This document shows, piece by piece, positions 6,698-34,560 of a stretch of DNA of 64,000 nucleotides; within the stretch, counting starts at the first letter, position 1; every line of letters starts with the position of its first letter. This DNA comes from Armatimonadetes bacterium Uphvl-Ar1 (GTDB lineage Bacteria; Armatimonadota; Fimbriimonadia; Fimbriimonadales; Fimbriimonadaceae), in assembly GCA_002162075.1 (NCBI GenBank), contig CP021423.1, positions 186,001 to 250,000 of the forward strand, written 5' to 3'. The notes beneath the pieces are model-generated. The model ran no database searches and was not told where the DNA came from. It saw only the letters and a list, made by a program, of their open reading frames with translations. A program made the position numbers and the translations under genes.

Positions 6698-9600
6698 TCA
6701 AGAGATGCCAAGAGTTTGCCGTTGTGATTCGAGTTCTTCGTGGGCGGCGTTGATGGTGCGGAGAGCAGTGTGAACTGCTTCGACGGGTGAGCCTGTGATG
6801 GGCCAGATGAGGTGATCCATGCTCATGTAGGCGTCGCGCTTGGATTGAGCAATGATGCCAGGGATGCGGGGATGGAGTTGGTGGTTCTCGTGGAAGGTGA
6901 TTTTAAGGCGTCCTTGGTTACCGTCGATTTGGGTGATATGGAGGTCGCGGGCGGTGATTCGGGCGGACATGATGTCGATGGCGGTTCGGACTTCCTTTGG
7001 CATTTTGCCGTAGCGATCTTCGAGGTCGGCGGCGACTTCTCCGAGGGCGAGGGGGTTGCGGGCGGCCATGAGTTGTTTGTAGAAAAAGAGGCGCTGGGCG
7101 GGATCTTCGACATAGTTGGTTGGAATGAGAGCTTGGACGGGGAGGTCGATGCTCGGGAGGGGTTCGAGGCCAGCAAGGGGGTCTTCGTATCCGGTTGGAC
7201 GGTTTCCGTCGGCATAGGTTTTGAGGAATTGCACCTCGGATTCGATGAGTTGACTGTAAAGATCGTATCCAACGGCGTTCATTTGTCCGGATTGCTTGGC
7301 ACCGAGGAGGTCACCGGCGCCTCGGATTTGGAGGTCTCGGAAGGCGAGGGAGTAGCCGGAGCCGAGTTGGTTGAATTCGGCAAGGGCTTGGAGGCGATCG
7401 GTGCCGGCTTCGGTCAGTGATTTGTCGCCAGCGTAGAGGAGGTAGGCGTAGGCTTGACGGTCGGATCGTCCGACTCTTCCTCGCAATTGGTAGAGCTGGG
7501 AGAGGCCGAATTGGTCGGCATTTTCGACGATGAGGGTGTTGGCGTTGGGGATATCGAGTCCGGCTTCGACGATGGTGGTGCTGACGAGGACATCGATTTC
7601 GCCTTGGACGAATCCGACCATAACGGGTTCAAGCTCTTTCTCGTTCATTTGTCCATGGCCGACGGCGACGCGGGCTTGGGGGACGAGTTTTTTGATTTTT
7701 TCGGCGATGTGATAGATGCCGTTGACGCGGTTGAAGACGAAAAAGACTTGTCCGCCCCGAGCGAGTTCGCGGAGGATGGCTTCGCGGATGACTTCGTTTG
7801 ACTCTGGTCGGACGAAGGTGCGCACGGGGAGACGTCCGGGTGGAGGGTCGTTGATGAGCGACATTTGTCGGATGTTCATGAGGGCCATGCTGAGGGTGCG
7901 GGGAATAGGGGTGGCGCTCATGGAGAGGACATCAACATTGACACGGATGGCCTTGAGGGTTTCTTTGTGTTTGACTCCGAATTTCTGTTCTTCGTCAATG
8001 ATGAGGAGTCCGAGGTCTTGGAATTTGAGTTCTTTGGAGAGCAGCGAGTGGGTGCCGATGACGATGTTGACTCGGCCTGTGGGGAGTTGCTCGAGGGTTT
8101 TTCGACGTTCGCCGGAGTGGGTGAACCGGTTGAGGAGGGCGATATTGATGTCGAATCCGGCGAGGCGTTCGGAGAAGCTCCGGAAGTGTTGTTCGGAAAG
8201 GATGGTGGTGGGGCAGAGGAGGGCGACTTGTTTGCCAGCTTGGGCAACTTGGAATGCAGCGCGGACGGCGACCTCGGTTTTTCCGAATCCGACATCACCG
8301 CAGATCAGTCGATCCATGGGGTAATCGGTTTTGAGGTCGATTTTGACTTCGTTAATGGCTTGGAGTTGGGATGGGGTTTCGACGTAAGGGAAAGTATTTT
8401 CCATCTCTTGGATGGCGTCGGAATTGGATTCGTATGGGTCGCGTTGGACGGCTTTTCGTTCGGCGTATAGCTTGATCAAGTCCCTAGCGAACTCTCTGGC
8501 TTCCTCGCGAGCCTTGGCGACGGCTTTCTTCCACTCCCCCCCCGTTAACCGGTTGATTTTGGGGTCATCGTCAGATGGACTGATGTATTTTTGGATGCGG
8601 TCGAGTTGATCGGCGGGGACGAAAAGTTGATCTGGGGCTTTGTATTTGATGTGGAGATATTCTTTTTCGATGCCTTCTTGAGTTCTTTTGATGAGGCCTT
8701 GGAAGACTCCGATCCCGAAATTGATGTGGACGACGTAATCCCCGGGTTTGAGGTCGAGGACGGTGGTGATGGGCATCCCCTCGCTGAACTTTCTTTGGGG
8801 GAGTTTGAGTCGGGCGACGCCATAGAGTTCGTGGTCGGTGACGACGGCGAGTTTGGCTTTTGGGATAATGAATCCGGTGGCGGGGTTTCCATCGATTACA
8901 TAGAGGCCAGGGGGGAGGACATCTGACTCCTGATCCCAGGGGTGGCCTTCGTCGAGGGGGTGGGATAGATTTCGACGCCAGCGAGGATGGACTTTGTGCG
9001 GTTGGGTTGATCGGTGGTGAAGGTGACGGTGAGGTCTTGTTTGATCCAATTTTGGATGGCGCGGGTGAGGATTGTGGGTTGCCCTTTGTAGTTATCGATG
9101 GGAGCGGCTCCGATTTCAAATTCTTCTGTTTCGCTGATCCAGTTGGGGATCGCGTTCATTGAGGTGAGGCTGAGAAGGGTGGGGGCGGAACTGAAATGTT
9201 CGGGAGATTGGAGGAAATCGTAGGCTTCGGCGGAGAGGATTTCACCGCGTTGGTGGCGGTGGGCGAGGGCGTCGGCGAGTTCTTCAGCTTGGCGGTTGCA
9301 GGTGGCTTCGAGGTCGAGGGGCTCGTCGAGGATGAGGAGTCCGTCTTCGCTGAGGTAGTCGATGGCGCAGGGGCCGTCGGGTTGGATGAGGGAGCGATAG
9401 AGGTCTATCCGGTCGAAATAGGTTTGGTTTTGAAGGGCGATTCGGTCTTCGGTGATGAGTTCTTCGAGGCGTTTTGCGGCTTCGTCTGAGAGGGAGCCTG
9501 ATTCATGGAGGACGGCGCGCTGGAGGATTTCGTCGAGATCGAGTTCGGGGGACGGGATGACGGTTTCGCGTGAGATGCCAATGGAGAACTCGTCGGCGCG

Positions 9601-10248
9601 GTCGGTTGACCTTTGAGTCATGGGGTCGAAGTGGCGTAGGGATTCGATTTCGTCGCCGAAGAATTCGATGCGGATGGGGAGGTCGTAGCCGACGGGGAAG
9701 ATGTCGAGGATTCCGCCACGGCGGGAGAATTGGCCGGGGACACGGACGGGATCGGAGGTCTCGTAGCCGAGGCGGAGGAGCTTTTCGGCGGCTTCGCGGG
9801 AGTCAATTTCGTTGCCGGGGGAGAAGGTGAGGGTGTTTTCGGTAATGTCGAGGGGATGGAGGGTGCGTTCGAGCGCGGCTTGAGGGGTGGCGATAACGAT
9901 GCCGGGGGTTGCGGAGGCGAGGAATCGAAGGGAGCCGAGTCGGTCGGAGAGAGCAACGGTTTCGGGGGCGGCGTCTTCGAAGAGGGCGGAGAGTCCGGAG
10001 GGGAGAATATGGATATCGTCTGGGTTAGTGCCGTAGAGAATGAGCTTAGCTTGCCAGGTGAGGGCCGCGTCGTAGTTGCGAACGATGAGGAGGGTTTGGC
10101 GAGGGGTGTGGTGGTGGATTCCGGCGATGAGGCAGGGCCGGGCGCCCGCTGCGAGTTGTGACCAGGTGGTCGCGCCGGGAGCGAGTTGGGTTGCCTCAGA
10201 GATATGGGGGTTTTGGGTGAGGCGCCGCGCCAGTTGATGGAGGCGCAT
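6698..10248 (-). CDS. mfd: transcription-repair coupling factor Mfd (single apparent frameshift)
   Basis: Two overlapping frames together encode a complete Mfd. The N-terminal frame (10248 down to about 8930) has the UvrB-like damage-recognition part ('FSRRGGILDIFPVGYDLPI'). The C-terminal frame (about 8960 to 6698) has the CarD-like RNA-polymerase-interaction domain ('DYVVHINFGIGVFQGL'), the helicase motor with Walker A 'CGDVGFGKTE' and Walker B 'IIDEEQKFG', the 'IRGAGDLLG' translocation segment, and the C-terminal TRCF domain. Mfd displaces stalled RNA polymerase and recruits UvrA. The frame changes by -1 between about 8910 and 8962, a stretch with a G6 and a G5 run, so a missing base in the assembly is more likely than a broken gene. 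The start is divergent from the selenoprotein gene. Confidence 0.9.
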
Positions 10249-10331: not shown

Positions 10332-10835
10332 ATGGCGCGGGTTGGATGGCGATTTGGGTTTGGGGTGATGGGGGTGATGGGTTTGATGATGTTTGGGGTT
10401 TTGGCGGGGTGTGGGAGCCGTGAGGGGAAGCCGATGCCGGAGTTTGCGATGAAGACGGTGGGGGGTGAGGCTTTTGGGAATAAGGATGTGCGGGGGCGGG
10501 TGGCGCTGTTTTATGTTTCGGGCGAGGGCTGAGGGGCTTGTGAGCCCGCCGGTCTGGCGGTGAAGCGGATTTTTGACAGTTACCCGAAGAAGCGGGTGGC
10601 GGTGGTGGCGGGGGATGCTTGGAACGATGATGTTTCGGGGGCGCGAGCGTTGTCGAAGAAGTTGGGGGTTCCGACGGTTGTAGGGATTCGGGAGGTTCAG
10701 CGCGACTTTGGGGCGACGGCGGTGCCGTTTTTTGTGGTGGTTGATCGTTCGGGTCGGGTGGTTTTTACTCAGTCGGGGTTTGGGGATGGTCAGGTGATAG
10801 AGGATGCGATTCACCGGGCTTTGGTGACGAAGTAG
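10332..10835 (+). CDS. candidate selenoprotein: TlpA-like thioredoxin lipoprotein with UxxC
   Basis: From the ATG at 10332 one frame runs to the TAG at 10833-10835, interrupted only by TGA at 10530-10532. Read through, it gives 167 residues: a lipoprotein signal (lipobox LAGC) and a redoxin domain ('ALFYVSGEG-U-GACEPAG', later 'ATAVPFFVVVDRSGRVVF', with the cis-Pro). The TGA falls at residue 67 exactly where thioredoxins have the first Cys of CxxC, leaving U-G-A-C with Cys70. A SECIS-like hairpin follows. An upstream GTG (10251) is unlikely because it would leave no room for a promoter next to the divergent mfd. It would be a membrane-anchored thiol/selenol oxidoreductase. Selenocysteine insertion needs SelA/B/C/D encoded elsewhere. 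The alternative is a nonsense mutation. Confidence 0.75.
10530..10560 (+). promoter_or_regulatory. bacterial SECIS-like hairpin after in-frame TGA
   Basis: After TGA (10530-10532) there are 18 bases before the apical loop. The stem CCGCC (10546-10550) pairs with GGCGG (10556-10560) around the loop GGTCT. A G in the first two loop positions and a 16-37-base distance from UGA are the usual features of bacterial SECIS elements, and GGUCU is the loop of the E. coli fdhF element as I recall it. A competing hairpin, GGGCT/AGCCC (10534-10538/10543-10547), is also possible. Confidence 0.6.
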
Positions 10836-10836
10836 G
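10724..10836 (+). repeat. 113-bp duplicated segment, copy A (3' end of the selenoprotein gene)
   Basis: This stretch, encoding the last 37 residues of the redoxin and its stop, recurs at 12098-12210 with only two or three base differences. Copy A is the functional gene end; copy B is detached. The pair brackets RHS and ankyrin material, so it marks a recombination or duplication event. Confidence 0.95.
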
Positions 10837-10893
10837 AGTGTTTGGACTTTTGAGTCCAGTGTTGTAGACTAGTGATGTATGGAGCGAGATTTG

Positions 10894-11022
10894 ATGTGGT
10901 ATGGATCTTGGGGTTACCCTGCGATGGCCCTTACTCGTAAGTTCCTCTGTTACGGTATCCATGCTCGTCACTATGCGGCGATTCGTGAGAATTGGACGGG
11001 TGTATTCCTTTCCAGCGATTAA
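10894..11022 (+). pseudogene. RHS-core fragment 1
   Basis: A 42-codon open stretch reads 'WYGSWGYPAMALTRKFL' and 'ARHYAAIRENWTGV', clearly homologous to the RHS repeat-associated core of the gene at 12341 ('WCGSWGYSAIALTRKFL', 'RARHYAAILGNWTSV'). The frame stops just where the intact copy continues 'DPLWPSE'. Nothing upstream encodes the rest of an RHS protein, so this is a relic, not a working gene. Confidence 0.8.
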
Positions 11023-11091
11023 CACAGGACTCTGATAACCGAAGAAAAGACAGGATGATGACTTTTAATTGATGTGGGATTTAGAAGCCGA

Positions 11092-11472
11092 ATGACACGC
11101 ACATGTGATTTCAACTGGAATTCTGTCCTCATCGGTTTTTTTATCCTTGCTTGCCTTGGATGCTCAAGACCACCCACAAGGGTGTCCCCACTTCATCAAG
11201 CAGCGGCATCTGGTGACTTAGAGACGACGCGATTGCTACTCCAAAGAGGTGATGATATCAATTCAAAAGATTCAGATGGAAATACTGCTCTCGTTCATGC
11301 CATATCAATGCAGCACTGGCATGTTGCTGATGAGTTGCTTGCACGGGGATGTCGTTTAGACTACAAAAACAGCTTAGGAATCAACCCTTTTGTTCAGTTT
11401 GCGAAGTACGGAAATAGTGATCAGAAAAAGTGGATCAACAGAAATTTTAAGGAGATTCTGGCGAGAGACTAG
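11092..11472 (+). CDS. ankyrin-repeat lipoprotein
   Basis: A 126-residue protein with a lipoprotein signal ('VLIGFFILACLGC', Cys lipidated) followed by two to three ankyrin repeats ('SPLHQAAASGDLETTRLLLQ', 'GNTALVHAISMQHWHVADEL'). It resembles the protein at 13686 in size, topology and repeats. Both sit just after RHS fragments. Ankyrin proteins have been proposed as immunity partners in polymorphic toxin loci, so an immunity role is possible but unproven. Base composition is more AT-rich than the housekeeping genes around the island. A GTG at 11074 is an alternative start. Confidence 0.75.
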   Translation: MTRTCDFNWNSVLIGFFILACLGCSRPPTRVSPLHQAAASGDLETTRLLLQRGDDINSKDSDGNTALVHAISMQHWHVADELLARGCRLDYKNSLGINPFVQFAKYGNSDQKKWINRNFKEILARD

Positions 11473-11533
11473 AAATTATAGGATATTACGATGAGCATGG
11501 TATATGGATCAAGCAGTAAAGCACAACAAAATC

Positions 11534-11659
11534 ATGAATGTGACGTCACCATCTTCTAAGCGGGGCTTGAAGCGTTGCGAGGTCTCCCAGATGGGGGTTG
11601 TGACGACCTTTGTTGGGAATGGGAGTGAGTATTTGCAGGATCGGAGCAAATGGGTGTAA
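11534..11659 (+). pseudogene. RHS/YD-repeat fragment 2
   Basis: A 41-residue stretch ends in 'VGNGSEYLQDRS', typical of the segment just before the RHS core. The DNA around 11620-11670 is nearly repeated at 12308-12353 ('GGGAG.GAGTATTTGCAGG' to 'TGGGTGTAACGAACTA'). The frame closes at TAA in the same place in both copies. It is a relic of a second RHS gene end. Confidence 0.65.
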
Positions 11660-11737
11660 CGAACTATTTAAGTCCTGGGGATGCGATATCGGTTTTTGAC
11701 TTGATTTTTGCAGTGCCAAAAACAGGGAATATTTTCA

Positions 11738-12073
11738 ATGACTAATTCCCAGGCTTCTCAGAGGCAAAAGAATTTCCGACTCCTTTTAATGTATTTTGCT
11801 GTAGTTTTTGCATTTTCATACATTCACAAATTATATCGTACGGCACTTCAGGATGAGCTCGTTCAAGAAGGCTTGTCAAGAAGGCAAGTGCTAGAATCAT
11901 TGCAATACAATACGAACAGTGGCATGGTGGGCGTGTTTTTGGGGTGGGTTTGCTTTATTTGCATATTGTACATAACTTATCATGAGCCAAGTATTTCCGA
12001 CAGAATTGTTGCATGGATTAGAAAAGTCCGAAAACTGGAAGTTGACGTGAATGAAGTTTCCGAAGAACTGTAG
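11738..12073 (+). CDS. hypothetical protein with two membrane spans
   Basis: From the ATG at 11738 (AGGGA seven to ten bases upstream) this encodes 111 residues with hydrophobic spans near residues 17-31 (LLLMYFAVVFAFSYI) and 65-83 (GMVGVFLGWVCFICILYIT), and a charged C-terminal tail. I recognise no family. It lies between an RHS fragment and copy B of the 113-bp repeat, in the AT-rich island. A membrane immunity or accessory protein for a lost toxin is one possibility. Confidence 0.55.
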   Translation: MTNSQASQRQKNFRLLLMYFAVVFAFSYIHKLYRTALQDELVQEGLSRRQVLESLQYNTNSGMVGVFLGWVCFICILYITYHEPSISDRIVAWIRKVRKLEVDVNEVSEEL

Positions 12074-12097
12074 AAGCAACGGAAGGTGGAAAGGGTG

Positions 12098-12210
12098 GCC
12101 GTTTTTTGTGGTGGTTGATCGTTCGGGTCGGGTGGTTTTTACTCAGTCGGGGTTTGGGGATGGCCAGGTGATTGAGGATGCGATTCACCGGGCTTTGGTG
12201 ACGAAGTAGG
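12098..12210 (+). repeat. 113-bp duplicated segment, copy B
   Basis: Near-identical to 10724-10836 but without the rest of the redoxin gene in front, so it encodes only an orphan C-terminal piece without a start. It directly precedes the RHS tip gene. The high identity implies a recent duplication. Confidence 0.95.
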
Positions 12211-12340
12211 GGTTTTGGTGGGAGTTTGATAAAGAAAAATTTTCGTTGGCGTACAAGAAATTTTGCTGTAGACTTGTCATAGAGTTCTCAGTCTTATCCC
12301 TCGTTTGGGATGGGAGCGAGTATTTGCAGGATCGAAGCTA

Positions 12341-13261
12341 ATGGGTGTAACGAACTACTTCAGTGTTGATGGTGAGGTGATTGCTGAGAGCGGTGCCGCT
12401 GGTTATTTGTCGTATCACCGTGACAATTTGGGTTCTGTTTGCGCTACGCTTGATAGCAGTGGAGCTTTGGTTCATCAGTACCAGTACAAGCCTTTTGGTG
12501 AACTATGGAGTGCAAGTGGAGTTGGTGCTCAGGATCGTCGTTTGCAGTGGTGTGGTTCTTGGGGTTATTCTGCGATAGCTTTGACTCGTAAGTTCCTGAG
12601 TTACTATGTTCGAGCTCGTCACTATGCAGCGATACTTGGGAATTGGACAAGTGTTGATCCGCTTTGGCCCTCTGAGATGGCTTATGGGTATGTGGAGAAC
12701 AGGGTGATGACGGGGGTGGATTATTGGGGGATGAGGAATTCCGTAAAAGGAAAGGTCCAAAAAAACAATGGATGTCAAGTGTACTATTGTACAATCCTCA
12801 CTGGAAAGTTGTTTCATTCTTTTGCTTGCGTTGATGGTCCAAATGGAGGTTGCGCCGGAGAAATATTTCCCAGCTTCTGGGGAGGACATGTTTATAACGC
12901 TTATGGGAAGCCGCAGATGAGGTGCAAAGAAATCCCTGGCGCAAGCTGTGAGTTGAAAAGCAGTGGAGATTGCACATATGCTGCGAGGGTATGCTTTGAG
13001 TTAAAGAAGCCGAAGACCGACGTAAATTATTGGGGAGAAGGAATGTGTCACTTCTATGCTGTCGGAGCGCTTTGCGATGCATGTGAAGCATATCGGTATG
13101 GGGGAAGGAGCCATGAAAAGTGCGTTTGTGAACAATGTGGCCAGGGGGACATGGGTGGAATGAGAATTGGCATTTCAAGTACAGGAGACTCTTACGTCTG
13201 TGGAGCAGCGGATTCCTCAAAGGCACGAATCTATGACCCAACCGTCGCGAGGAAGTATTGA
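12341..13261 (+). CDS. RHS-core C-terminal tip with Cys-rich domain
   Basis: The 306-residue frame starts inside RHS repeats ('YLSYHRDNLGSVCATLD', 'YQYKPFGELWSASG'), passes through the RHS core ('RARHYAAILGNWTSVDPLWP', 'NRVMTGVDYWGM', ending about residue 130) and continues with a variable tip of about 175 residues holding some 16 Cys. The tip has an early His ('TGKLFHSFACVDGPNGG') and a late Cys/His segment ('WGEGMCHFYAVGALCDAC'). Tips after the RHS core are usually exchangeable toxin domains; this one I cannot assign. Upstream RHS sequence is out of frame and the gene lacks the shell, so it is an orphan tip or a decayed gene. A TTG at 12305 is less likely as start. Confidence 0.65.
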   Translation: MGVTNYFSVDGEVIAESGAAGYLSYHRDNLGSVCATLDSSGALVHQYQYKPFGELWSASGVGAQDRRLQWCGSWGYSAIALTRKFLSYYVRARHYAAILGNWTSVDPLWPSEMAYGYVENRVMTGVDYWGMRNSVKGKVQKNNGCQVYYCTILTGKLFHSFACVDGPNGGCAGEIFPSFWGGHVYNAYGKPQMRCKEIPGASCELKSSGDCTYAARVCFELKKPKTDVNYWGEGMCHFYAVGALCDACEAYRYGGRSHEKCVCEQCGQGDMGGMRIGISSTGDSYVCGAADSSKARIYDPTVARKY

Positions 13262-13548
13262 GACATAGTAAAGGATTTAGATGGATGGTTGCGATAATAT
13301 GCATGCTAGTTATGTTGATCGCTTTAATGATTGGAAATACTGTGGCAATAATCAATGCGGTAGCACCTATAACAGATCAAGACGCTGAAGAAATGTTGCT
13401 AAAATATGGCGAAGAAGTTGATCCAGGCTCAATCCAAATTTCAAGAAATCCAACGCATTATTCAGGTAGAGTTATTGGTCGAGTAAAGCAGGGCTCGGAG
13501 TGGAAGCAAGTTGTCGTTACTGTGTACCATAAACCATTTGCTTTGTAG
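13258..13548 (+). CDS. small membrane-anchored protein, candidate immunity partner
   Basis: This overlaps the RHS tip stop by four bases (TTGA) and encodes up to 96 residues: one membrane span (about residues 10-33, 'MVAIICMLVMLIALMIG') and an extracytoplasmic domain ('ISRNPTHYSGRVIGRVKQGS'). An ATG at 13285 is an alternative start. A small gene coupled to the 3' end of an RHS tip gene is the usual position of an immunity gene, which is the basis for that suggestion. No family recognised. Confidence 0.55.
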   Translation: MRHSKGFRWMVAIICMLVMLIALMIGNTVAIINAVAPITDQDAEEMLLKYGEEVDPGSIQISRNPTHYSGRVIGRVKQGSEWKQVVVTVYHKPFAL

Positions 13549-13685
13549 ATTTTGCCAATGGCTTCCAATATAATGAATGAAAAGTTGTCATGGCGAGATT
13601 CCGAGAGGAGTTTTCAAAAAAGCTAAGTGGGTAGTGATGATGGAATTTTGCACTTTAGGAGAGATGGAGAGGTGGAGTTGGTAGT

Positions 13686-14096
13686 TTGAGCAATAAGTCA
13701 GCAAAGCAAACAATCTGCTCCATGGTGCTTTTGCTCGGCATTACGTGTGCTGCTCTAATGGCCTGGTGGGCAGTTGGGTTTGGCCAATCTTATATGCCTC
13801 CAGCTTTACACGAAGCAGCGCGACGCGGCGATATGAGTCAGGTGCGGAATTTAGTGGAGTCTGGGACAGATCCAAATCTACTCGATGATAACAAGAGGAC
13901 TGCGCTGCAACATGCAGTTGAGAATCAGCATTTTGGTGTTGCCGAGTATCTCTTGAAAAGAGGCGGAACTCTAGACGTGAAATCAACTCGCGGTCTCACT
14001 GGTCGCGATGAAATACTTTCGCGGGATTATTCTCATCTCCCAACTAAAAATCGACCGGATAACTGGGTGCATGGTGTTTATGATAAGTACAAATGA
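13686..14096 (+). CDS. ankyrin-repeat protein with N-terminal membrane anchor
   Basis: A TTG-started frame of 136 residues has a hydrophobic span near residues 11-32 ('MVLLLGITCAALMAWWAVG') and ankyrin repeats ('PALHEAARRGDMSQVRNLVE', 'RTALQHAVENQHFGVAEYLL'). It is a paralogue of the lipoprotein at 11092 but has no clear lipobox. It is the last gene of the AT-rich island and may belong to the RHS tip unit. Confidence 0.65.
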   Translation: MSNKSAKQTICSMVLLLGITCAALMAWWAVGFGQSYMPPALHEAARRGDMSQVRNLVESGTDPNLLDDNKRTALQHAVENQHFGVAEYLLKRGGTLDVKSTRGLTGRDEILSRDYSHLPTKNRPDNWVHGVYDKYK

Positions 14097-14188
14097 ATGT
14101 TGAAAATTTGAGGTTTACATATTTCAAACACGAAGTTTGCAATCTCAGTTACCCTCATCTTGACCTCGCACCAATTTGTCGTAATTGA

Positions 14189-15962
14189 TTAGCCGCCAAG
14201 TTGGTTGATTTGGGTTTGTATTTGCTGTTGGGTTGTGGGGTCGGAGGCGAAGGAGAGGGCTTGGTAGAGGGCTTCGCGGGCGGCAGTGGGATTTCCGGAG
14301 ACGCTCAGATTAGCGGAGGCTTGTTGGTACCGCTGGATGGCGCGGGATTTGATTTGGCCTTCTTGGTCGGGGGCGAGGAGAATGGCATCGCGGAATTTTT
14401 CGTTGGCGTCTCGCCAGAATTCGTTGCGGATGCGGGCGGTGGGGGTGTTTGCGCCTTGATCCACGAGAGTTTCGGCATCGAGGGTGAGGGTGTTGGGGTC
14501 GCCGGTGGGGAGGGGGTTGCGGATCACGCGCTCGGTTTCGGTTGGTTGCGATTGGTTTGAATCTTTTGGTGGTGCCGGTGCAGTGTTGGTAGGTTGAGCG
14601 GGATTAGCGGGTGGGGAGCTTTGGGGCTGGGTGCGGGCAGAATTTTCAGCGAATTCGGTGGAAGCTTCAGAGATCGAATTCAGGCCGTAGACAAGGAGAC
14701 CGCAGATTCCGCCGAGGATGAGGAATGCGGCGGCAAACCGGGCCAGGTTGGCACTTGCTTCGGGGGAGATGGTGACGAGTGGTTTTTTGGGAGGTGGGGG
14801 GTAATAGACGGGGATTTGGGAGGGGGGCGCGAGGGCTCCGCTATAGGCTTGAGGATAGTGGTTGCCGGGTGGGGCTTGTCCGGTTTGAGGCTGGGGGTAG
14901 GGCGAATAGGGAGCATAGATTACGCCGGACTGGGGGCGGGTTGGCTGTATTGGTATTGGTTGGTGGGAGGAGGGGGTTGGCCCATTTGGGCGATGGCGGC
15001 TTGGTTGGGGTTATAGAGGGGGTTTGGGGTGCCGTATGGGGTGACGGGGGAGTTGAGGAGTTGGTTGTAGGCTTGAGGCTGGTTGGGATTTTGGGGGGTG
15101 GGGCGTTGAAATGGGGGTTGGGGTCGAGGACGAGGTCGTTGAGAGAGCGGAGGGCGGTTTTGAGTTCGGTTATGAACTGTTCGCAGGAGGCTTGGCGGAG
15201 CTGGGGGGTTTTGTCGAGCGCTTTGATTACTACTTGCCAGACCATGGAATTGAGCCCGTTGATGGGGGCCGGTTCGGCGTTCATGATGGCGTAGGTGATG
15301 GAGACGACGCTGTCGCCGGTGAATGGTTTTTTTCCGGCGAGCATCTCGTAGAGGATGATGCCGAGGCTAAAGATATCGGAACGGGCGTCGATGTCGCGTC
15401 CGTTGATTTGTTCGGGGGACATGTAGGATGGGGTGCCAAAGACCTGACCATCCATGGTGATATTGGGCTCGAAGGTGAGTCGGGCGATGCCGAAGTCGGT
15501 GAGCTTGATGGCTCCGTTGGCGAGGATTTGGATATTTTCTGGTTTGACATCGCGGTGGACGACGCCGTGGTTGTGGGCGAAGACGAGGGCCTTGGCGATT
15601 TCGATTGAGATTTCGATGGCTTTATCGGTGGGGATTGTGCCTTGTTCTTCGAGGGTTTTGCGGAGGTTTTGGCCATCGAGGAACTCCATGGCGAGGTAGT
15701 AGCGGCCTGATTGTTCGGCGACATCGTATACGGTGACGATGTTGGGGTGGACGAGTGACCCGGCGGCTTTTGCTTCGCGCATGAAGCGTTTGATACGGTC
15801 GTCTTTTTGTTGGGTAGTGGCACCGGAGGGGACAGCGAGCTCTTTGACGGCGACGCGCCGGTTCATCACGGGATCGTAGCCTTCGTAGACGATGTCATTT
15901 GAACGGGCGATCTCGCGGATGATTTGGTATTTACCCAGTACGTCCGGCGGGGATTGGCTCAT
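14189..15962 (-). CDS. membrane Ser/Thr protein kinase (two apparent frameshifts)
   Basis: The kinase domain (from Met at 15962, residues about 10-265) shows the VAVKEL lysine, 'VVHRDVKPENIQI', 'KLTDFGIARL' and 'GTPSYMSPEQI'. The Gly-rich loop is degenerate: 'REIARSNDIVYEGYD' replaces GxGxxG. After it come a Pro/Gln/Asn-rich linker, a membrane span ('FAAAFLILGGICGLLVYGL') and a helical extracytoplasmic part ending at 14189. The linker is split over three frames by two -1 shifts, at about 15093-15098 (G6) and 14932-14940 (G5/G3). Each shift restores a sensible Pro/Gln-rich or Tyr/Pro-rich sequence, so one gene with two missing bases is likely. It would phosphorylate unknown proteins and sense an envelope signal. 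Confidence 0.8.
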
Positions 15963-33386: not shown

Positions 33387-33956
33387 ATGACGAGTTGGAA
33401 ATGGACAGCGGGGGTTGTGGTTTTGGCGATGGGTTTGCTTGGCTGCGCACCTGAAAAAGTTGAGGTTCCGCCGACAAAGGAAGTTGTAGTGAGTAATGCG
33501 CCGAGTGAGGCGGGTGGTTCTCTTTCGGAGACGGTTGCGGTTGGAAAGGCCGCACCTGATTTTGAGATTTTGGATGAGAACGGCAAGAGTTGGAAGTTAT
33601 CGGATTATCGGGGGAAGACGGTGTTGCTTGATTTTTGGGGGTTCTGGTGCCCATATTGCGTGAAGGAGTTGCCGGAGCTGAGGAAGTACCACGACGAATT
33701 GGAGGCAAGGGGGCTTGTGCTGATCGGCATGAATAACGACTCGGAGCCAGCGAGCGAGATCAAGAAGCAGTTGGCAAAAAGCGTGGTCAATTGGCGGCAG
33801 GGAATGATTGGTGATGGTCACGAGTTGGACAAGGATTACGATGTGAGTGCTTATCCGACTAAGGTGTTGGTTGATCCGGATGGGATGATTGTTAACATTG
33901 ACAATTTCATTGATCAGGCGACAATTGAGAAGTATCTGCCAAAGTCGGTCAACTGA
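33387..33956 (+). CDS. TlpA-like thioredoxin lipoprotein with CxxC
   Basis: The 189-residue protein has a lipoprotein signal ('VVVLAMGLLGC'), a Pro/Ser linker, and a TlpA/ResA-like redoxin domain: 'APDFEILDENGKSWKLSDYR', active site 'LLDFWGFWCPYCVKELPEL', cis-Pro in 'DVSAYPTKVLVDPDG'. A good AGGAG ribosome-binding site precedes the ATG. Membrane-anchored thiol reductases of this type serve cytochrome c maturation or reduce envelope disulfides. It is followed 16 bases later by a paralogue in which the first active-site Cys is replaced by TGA; the two align without gaps through the domain. Confidence 0.92.
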   Translation: MTSWKWTAGVVVLAMGLLGCAPEKVEVPPTKEVVVSNAPSEAGGSLSETVAVGKAAPDFEILDENGKSWKLSDYRGKTVLLDFWGFWCPYCVKELPELRKYHDELEARGLVLIGMNNDSEPASEIKKQLAKSVVNWRQGMIGDGHELDKDYDVSAYPTKVLVDPDGMIVNIDNFIDQATIEKYLPKSVN

Positions 33957-33972
33957 GATACACTGATGGGTG

Positions 33973-34560
33973 ATGAGCAGTTCTAGAACAGGTTTGGCTC
34001 TGGTTTTAGTTGGTTTGCTTTTGGTGGGCTGTGGTCCGACACCGGCACCAACGGTTGCCCCACAATCGAATAGTGAGGGAAAGGCTCCGGACGAGGTGGC
34101 GGTTGAAGCTCCCAAGGTGGTGGGGATGGAATCGCTTTCCAAAACGGTTGTGGTTGGGAAAGAGGCACCTGACTTTACGATCAAAGATGCGGATGGGCAA
34201 GAGTGGACGCTTTCTGATTATCGGGGCAAGACGGTCTTATTGGACTTTTGGGCGTTTTGGTGAAGCAGTTGTGTTGAGGAGCTCGGTGAGCTCCGAAAGT
34301 GGAACGACGAACTGGGCGGCGACGATTTTGTGATGATCGGAATGAATGCTGATCCGGAGTCGGCTCAAGAGCTGAAGCCACGCCTGGAAAAAGCGAAAGT
34401 GAATTGGCGTCAGGGCTTGATGGGTGAGGAGCATCCTTTGATGGATGATTATCAGATTCCTGGCTACCCGACAAAGATCGTGATTGATCCGGAAGGGGTG
34501 GTGAAGTTCATTGACCACTTTGTGGATGAAGCCCAATTGAAAGAGTTCTTGAAGAAGTGA
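33973..34560 (+). CDS. candidate selenoprotein: TlpA-like thioredoxin lipoprotein with UxxC
   Basis: One frame from the ATG at 33973 to the TGA at 34558-34560 is interrupted only by TGA at 34261-34263. Read through as Sec it gives 195 residues: lipoprotein signal ('VLVGLLLVGC'), linker, and a redoxin domain with 'LLDFWAFW-U-SSCVEELGEL'. U97 aligns exactly with the first Cys of the CxxC of the upstream paralogue ('FWGFWCPYC'), and similarity continues for about 95 residues after the TGA ('IGMNADPESAQELKPRLEKA'; 'PGYPTKIVIDPEG'), which argues against a dead gene. A strong SECIS-like hairpin follows. It would be a membrane-anchored selenol/thiol oxidoreductase co-expressed with its Cys paralogue. 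Confidence 0.85.
34261..34294 (+). promoter_or_regulatory. bacterial SECIS-like hairpin after in-frame TGA
   Basis: TGA (34261-34263) is followed after 14 bases by the perfect stem GGAGCTC (34278-34284) / GAGCTCC (34288-34294) with loop GGT. The loop begins 21 bases after the TGA and starts with G, within the usual limits for bacterial SECIS elements. The corresponding place in the Cys paralogue (33652 onwards) reads GCCGGAGCTGAGGAAGTACC and cannot form this stem. Confidence 0.7.

Follow-up and report, generated by a model that had tools for sequence, protein, structure and literature searches.

An in-frame UGA that is very probably read as selenocysteine in a redoxin lipoprotein gene of Armatimonadetes bacterium Uphvl-Ar1

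Introduction

The locus at 10332-10835 of the analysed window (the whole stretch of 64,000 nucleotides, to which all positions given here refer unless stated otherwise) holds a redoxin-like gene with a stop codon in its middle, and raises the question whether that codon is read as selenocysteine (Sec) or marks a gene that is broken, split or read through in some other manner. Here, we argue that it is very probably a functional selenoprotein gene, and we infer Sec incorporation at its UGA. In mechanistic terms, codon 67 would be decoded as Sec by SelB and tRNA-Sec, under the direction of a hairpin whose GGU-type apical loop lies 18 nt downstream of the UGA. The features discussed below are collected in Table 1.

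Table 1. Coordinates of the features discussed in the text (window positions, except for SelD)
Feature	Position	Strand	Evidence
Probable UxxC Redoxin/ResA-like lipoprotein selenoprotein gene	10332..10835	+	translation with TGA = Sec, Pfam, predicted thioredoxin fold
Predicted signal peptide; lipobox L-A-G-C (its Cys is residue 27)	10332..10412	+	sequence
Probable Sec codon TGA, position 1 of the U-G-A-C redox motif	10530..10532	+	both orthologs have TGA, the distant homologs all Cys
Putative bacterial SECIS hairpin, core CCGCC-GGTCT-GGCGG	10546..10560 (loop 10551-10555)	+	sequence, folding, ortholog comparison
Cys tandem paralog of the 33973 gene, FWGFW-C-PYC	33387..33956	+	
Second candidate selenoprotein gene, ResA/TlpA-like, FWAFW-U-SSC (TGA at 34261-34263)	33973..34560	+	conserved TGA, hairpin
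SelD, TGA in frame at the active-site codon (KCAG-U-ASK)	G000:C1:2772333-2773256 (L009)		

Reading frame, homologs and selection

Read directly from the sequence, the frame runs from the ATG at 10332 to a TAG at 10833-10835, and the TGA is its sole interruption. With TGA translated as Sec the product comprises 167 residues, and Sec67 lies in the context FYVSGEG-U-GAC-EPAG, where U67-G-A-C70 forms a UxxC motif. The initial annotation had proposed that the TGA stands where a CxxC motif has its first Cys, and both the frame and the homologs bear this out: the next relatives (~31-35% identical) have Cys at the Sec position (e.g., the L022 relative, with SGIG-C-SPC and a lipobox), as do 27/27 of the distant homologs in which the motif could be aligned.

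A search of the family (85 genomes) and the phylum (291 genomes) recovered two orthologs, from two other species of the genus (93% and ~66-69% identical); in both, the corresponding codon is TGA and there is no further internal stop. The mfd neighbourhood matches the window in both of them, indicating that gene order was kept. The gene was not found in five of the eight species of the genus, though all five have selA. No relative was found in phage records and viral contigs, and a scan of genome contigs returned only the 93% ortholog (contig BC.035) and two distant matches.

The sequence past the TGA appears to be under purifying selection. Compared with the 93% ortholog, dN and dS were 0.009 and 0.155 after the TGA (0.012 and 0.224 before it), while the differences after the TGA were distributed over the three codon positions as 3/0/10 against the 93% ortholog and 25/16/63 against the 66-69% ortholog (for which dS is saturated). 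Both the dN/dS values and the codon-position pattern argue that the 3' part is translated, and held under constraint, in the frame of the 5' part.

The organism has a full set of Sec genes: its genome (2.985 Mb in one contig) encodes SelB (352 bits), SelA (430 bits), SelD (348 bits) and tRNA-Sec (73.9 bits), all above their family cut-offs, and SelA occurs throughout the genus (8/8 genomes) and in 142/291 genomes from the phylum. Judging from its sequence, SelD is itself a selenoprotein in this genome, because a TGA lies in frame at the active-site codon of its gene.

These observations bear on three other explanations. A pseudogene, in which a nonsense mutation inactivated a CxxC redoxin, would fit the absence of the gene from 5/8 species of the genus, but it is hard to reconcile with a TGA shared by three species whose identity falls as low as 66-69%, with the intact and selectively constrained frame past it, or with the full Sec system of the genome; we regard it as highly improbable. 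We give equally little credence to a two-part or truncated gene, in which the TGA would end a short secreted peptide and translation would restart downstream (e.g., at the GTG at 10560): a 91-aa downstream ORF with a GTG start does exist, yet a single thioredoxin fold requires both halves, all homologs have a Cys aligned to the TGA, and the G-A-C-E between the TGA and the GTG is conserved. The least probable, to the point of being negligible, is the readthrough of UGA as another amino acid (by suppression or reassignment); nothing specific speaks for it, although a hairpin could in principle promote readthrough, and it is opposed by the Cys at the aligned position of the homologs, by the complete Sec machinery and by the use of TGA as an ordinary stop elsewhere (e.g., in the CxxC gene ending at 33956). 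The initial annotation had held that the organism decodes UGA as Sec in envelope thiol proteins and that nonsense mutation is unlikely; machinery, conservation and selection, together with the hairpin described below, support this claim.

A candidate SECIS hairpin downstream of the UGA

The hairpin named in the initial annotation (CCGCC-GGTCT-GGCGG, with a G-G-U-C-U loop 18 bases after the TGA) was readily found in the sequence: the CCGCC/GGCGG stem is a perfect 5 bp and the loop starts exactly 18 nt past the TGA. The SECIS element of E. coli fdhF has a GGUCU apical loop 18 nt after its UGA; loop and spacing are common to both elements, whereas the stem sequence differs and no counterpart of the bulged U was identified in the hairpin described here.

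A strict rule (five Watson-Crick pairs and a loop starting with GGT, 14-22 nt after a TGA), framed once the hairpin had already been seen, was passed on the + strand of the window by this hairpin alone among ~1844 TGA triplets, and on the - strand by one among ~703. The published bSECIS model (PMC13188914, Fig. 2) asks for an upper stem of 4-16 bp under a loop of 3-9 nt that has G in its first two positions, at a spacing of 16-37 nt and with an MFE no higher than -7.5, and it likewise accommodates the hairpin (5 nt GGUCU, 5 bp, 18 nt; -13.6 for the stretch, or -11.8 when this hairpin is imposed). As scanned here, in a form looser than the strict rule, this model also passes 802 of the 1844 + strand TGAs (43%), and the fit to it, taken alone, is weak evidence. 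A genome-wide count of the TGA-N-GGT pattern was tried as a SECIS indicator and proved uninformative, as it gave thousands of matches.

Folded without constraint, the 45 nt past the TGA favour a competing pairing (-13.6 kcal/mol, versus -11.8 kcal/mol with CCGCC-GGUCU-GGCGG imposed). With the 9-13 nt next to the TGA masked, as they are in a ribosome with the UGA in its A site, the hairpin becomes the minimum (-8.8 to -9.7); the ribosome would thus break the competing pairing and free the hairpin. This competing fold, along with the presence of the gene in three species only, are the points that we count against the Sec reading.

The comparison of relatives links the hairpin to the TGA. All ten stem bases are the same in the divergent (66-69%) ortholog, although 70 of the 100 codons after the TGA differ; its hairpin reaches 8 bp and -13 kcal/mol, and the changes nearby affect the last loop base and positions outside the core, one of them extending the stem. 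When only the sequence beyond the ribosome (from ~11 nt after the UGA) was folded, a hairpin of the CCGCC-GGUCU-GGCGG type with a GGU/GUC loop formed in 3/3 TGA members, and the same folding produced no hairpin with a GG- or GU-starting loop in any of the 27 Cys homologs (a few of which show other hairpins, some having a G among the first two loop bases).

A companion UGA gene

The ResA/TlpA-like gene at 33973 shows the same combination of UGA conservation and hairpin linkage. Its TGA is kept in four species (that of the window and those of genomes G078, G079 and G083), and a GAGCTC-GGT-GAGCTC hairpin occurs in each of the four TGA copies, being absent from the Cys tandem paralog at 33387 and from other Cys homologs. 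The two redoxin genes had been described as unlinked, which agrees with the 23.6 kb that separate them. In both SECIS candidates GGU follows the C that ends the 5' stem strand, a feature in which the SelD hairpin has no obvious share. The stretch at 33387-34560 holds CxxC and UxxC ResA-like lipoprotein genes in tandem.

Genomic surroundings

The neighbourhood of the 10332 gene differs from that of its closest relative. About 3.35 kb of the window (10843-14189) are missing from BC.035, in which sequence matching the window from 14190 comes almost immediately after the candidate selenoprotein gene. Besides an ORF with an Rhs core (12305-13261), the extra segment contains two small proteins of the ankyrin type as well as repeated pieces, resembling an Rhs tip region. 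Within it, 12098-12217 repeats the final 119-120 nt of the selenoprotein gene region (10724-10842) at 97%, stop codon included, which suggests a duplication during insertion of the segment; BC.035 has a single copy of this piece. On the other side, mfd (- strand, 6698-10248) lacks one base at 8957 relative to BC.035 and so falls into two ORFs, while in BC.035 the frame is open for ~1210 codons; the break is either a real frameshift or an assembly error.

Domain, fold and likely role

The product scores 32.5 bits against Pfam Redoxin (PF08534; gathering score 26.6) and slightly less, 27.5 bits, against AhpC-TSA (PF00578), also above the cut-off. Its AlphaFold2 model has a thioredoxin fold, with pLDDT mostly >90 outside the N-terminus (high confidence beyond residue 30). 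Among solved structures, ResA gave the top matches in fold and in sequence; ResA from Bacillus came first, followed by other anchored thiol-disulfide oxidoreductases. The product scores 26 against the ResA profile NF002854 (NCBIfam), far below its curated cut-off of 170 bits; it is ResA-like by fold, yet not classed as ResA. In the alignment the columns of the CxxC motif are invariant, and so is P132, the Pro that precedes strand 4 at the usual cis-Pro site.

The product is most likely an envelope thiol-disulfide oxidoreductase. It would be exported and lipid-anchored, and in its thioredoxin-like domain, of the ResA/TlpA type, catalysis would fall to the pair of Sec67 (the attacking residue) and Cys70 (the resolving one). 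In the 66-69% ortholog (L021, 1441-1560) the N-terminus is hydrophobic and the lipobox Cys is absent, so anchoring appears to differ among species. No operon partner points to a substrate: the divergent mfd lies upstream and the inserted Rhs-type segment downstream.

Relationship to known selenoprotein families

Reviews list a 'Redoxin family protein' (PF08534, UxxC) among the predicted selenoprotein families (PMC13188914, PMC9312934), together with a 'Prx-like thiol:disulfide oxidoreductase' (PF00578, UxxC/UxxU; PMC13188914, PMC1088965). With the former, the 10332 gene has in common the Pfam Redoxin domain, Sec as the first residue of a CxxC-type motif and a downstream bSECIS-like hairpin; it is placed there by domain and motif, while its lipobox and narrow spread may set it apart. 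With the latter, to which it is likened by domain and motif as well, it shares the AhpC-TSA domain and the thioredoxin-like UxxC, but it fits PF08534 slightly better. It is predicted to have the anchored extracytoplasmic thioredoxin fold of the membrane-anchored oxidoreductases ResA, TlpA and CcmG, but differs from them in having Sec for the first Cys and is only ~20% identical in sequence. To take the find as singular was therefore an overstatement, since UxxC redoxins are already known as predicted selenoproteins; the 10332 gene is apparently a new member of this listed kind, restricted to part of one genus. A literature search combining Fimbriimonadales/Armatimonadota with selenocysteine or selenoprotein found nothing on the subject.

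More tentatively, and with the odds rather against it, the gene may represent a genus-restricted subfamily of lipid-anchored UxxC redoxins (with an SGEGUGAC signature) acting on its own particular substrate. On this reading the lineage would also place Sec in several distinct envelope thiol proteins, with a C-GGU apical recognition motif common to their SECIS elements.

Implications

Usual annotation of 10332-10835 would give two fragments or a truncated gene. Read with Sec, the locus adds a firmly supported selenoprotein to a phylum in which half of the examined genomes have selA. The UGA/Cys paralog pair at 33387-34560 is a natural experiment on Cys-to-Sec exchange, and the 10332 gene, the 33973 gene and SelD present UGA in three contexts within a single genome, a set from which the SelB recognition rules of this lineage may be derived.
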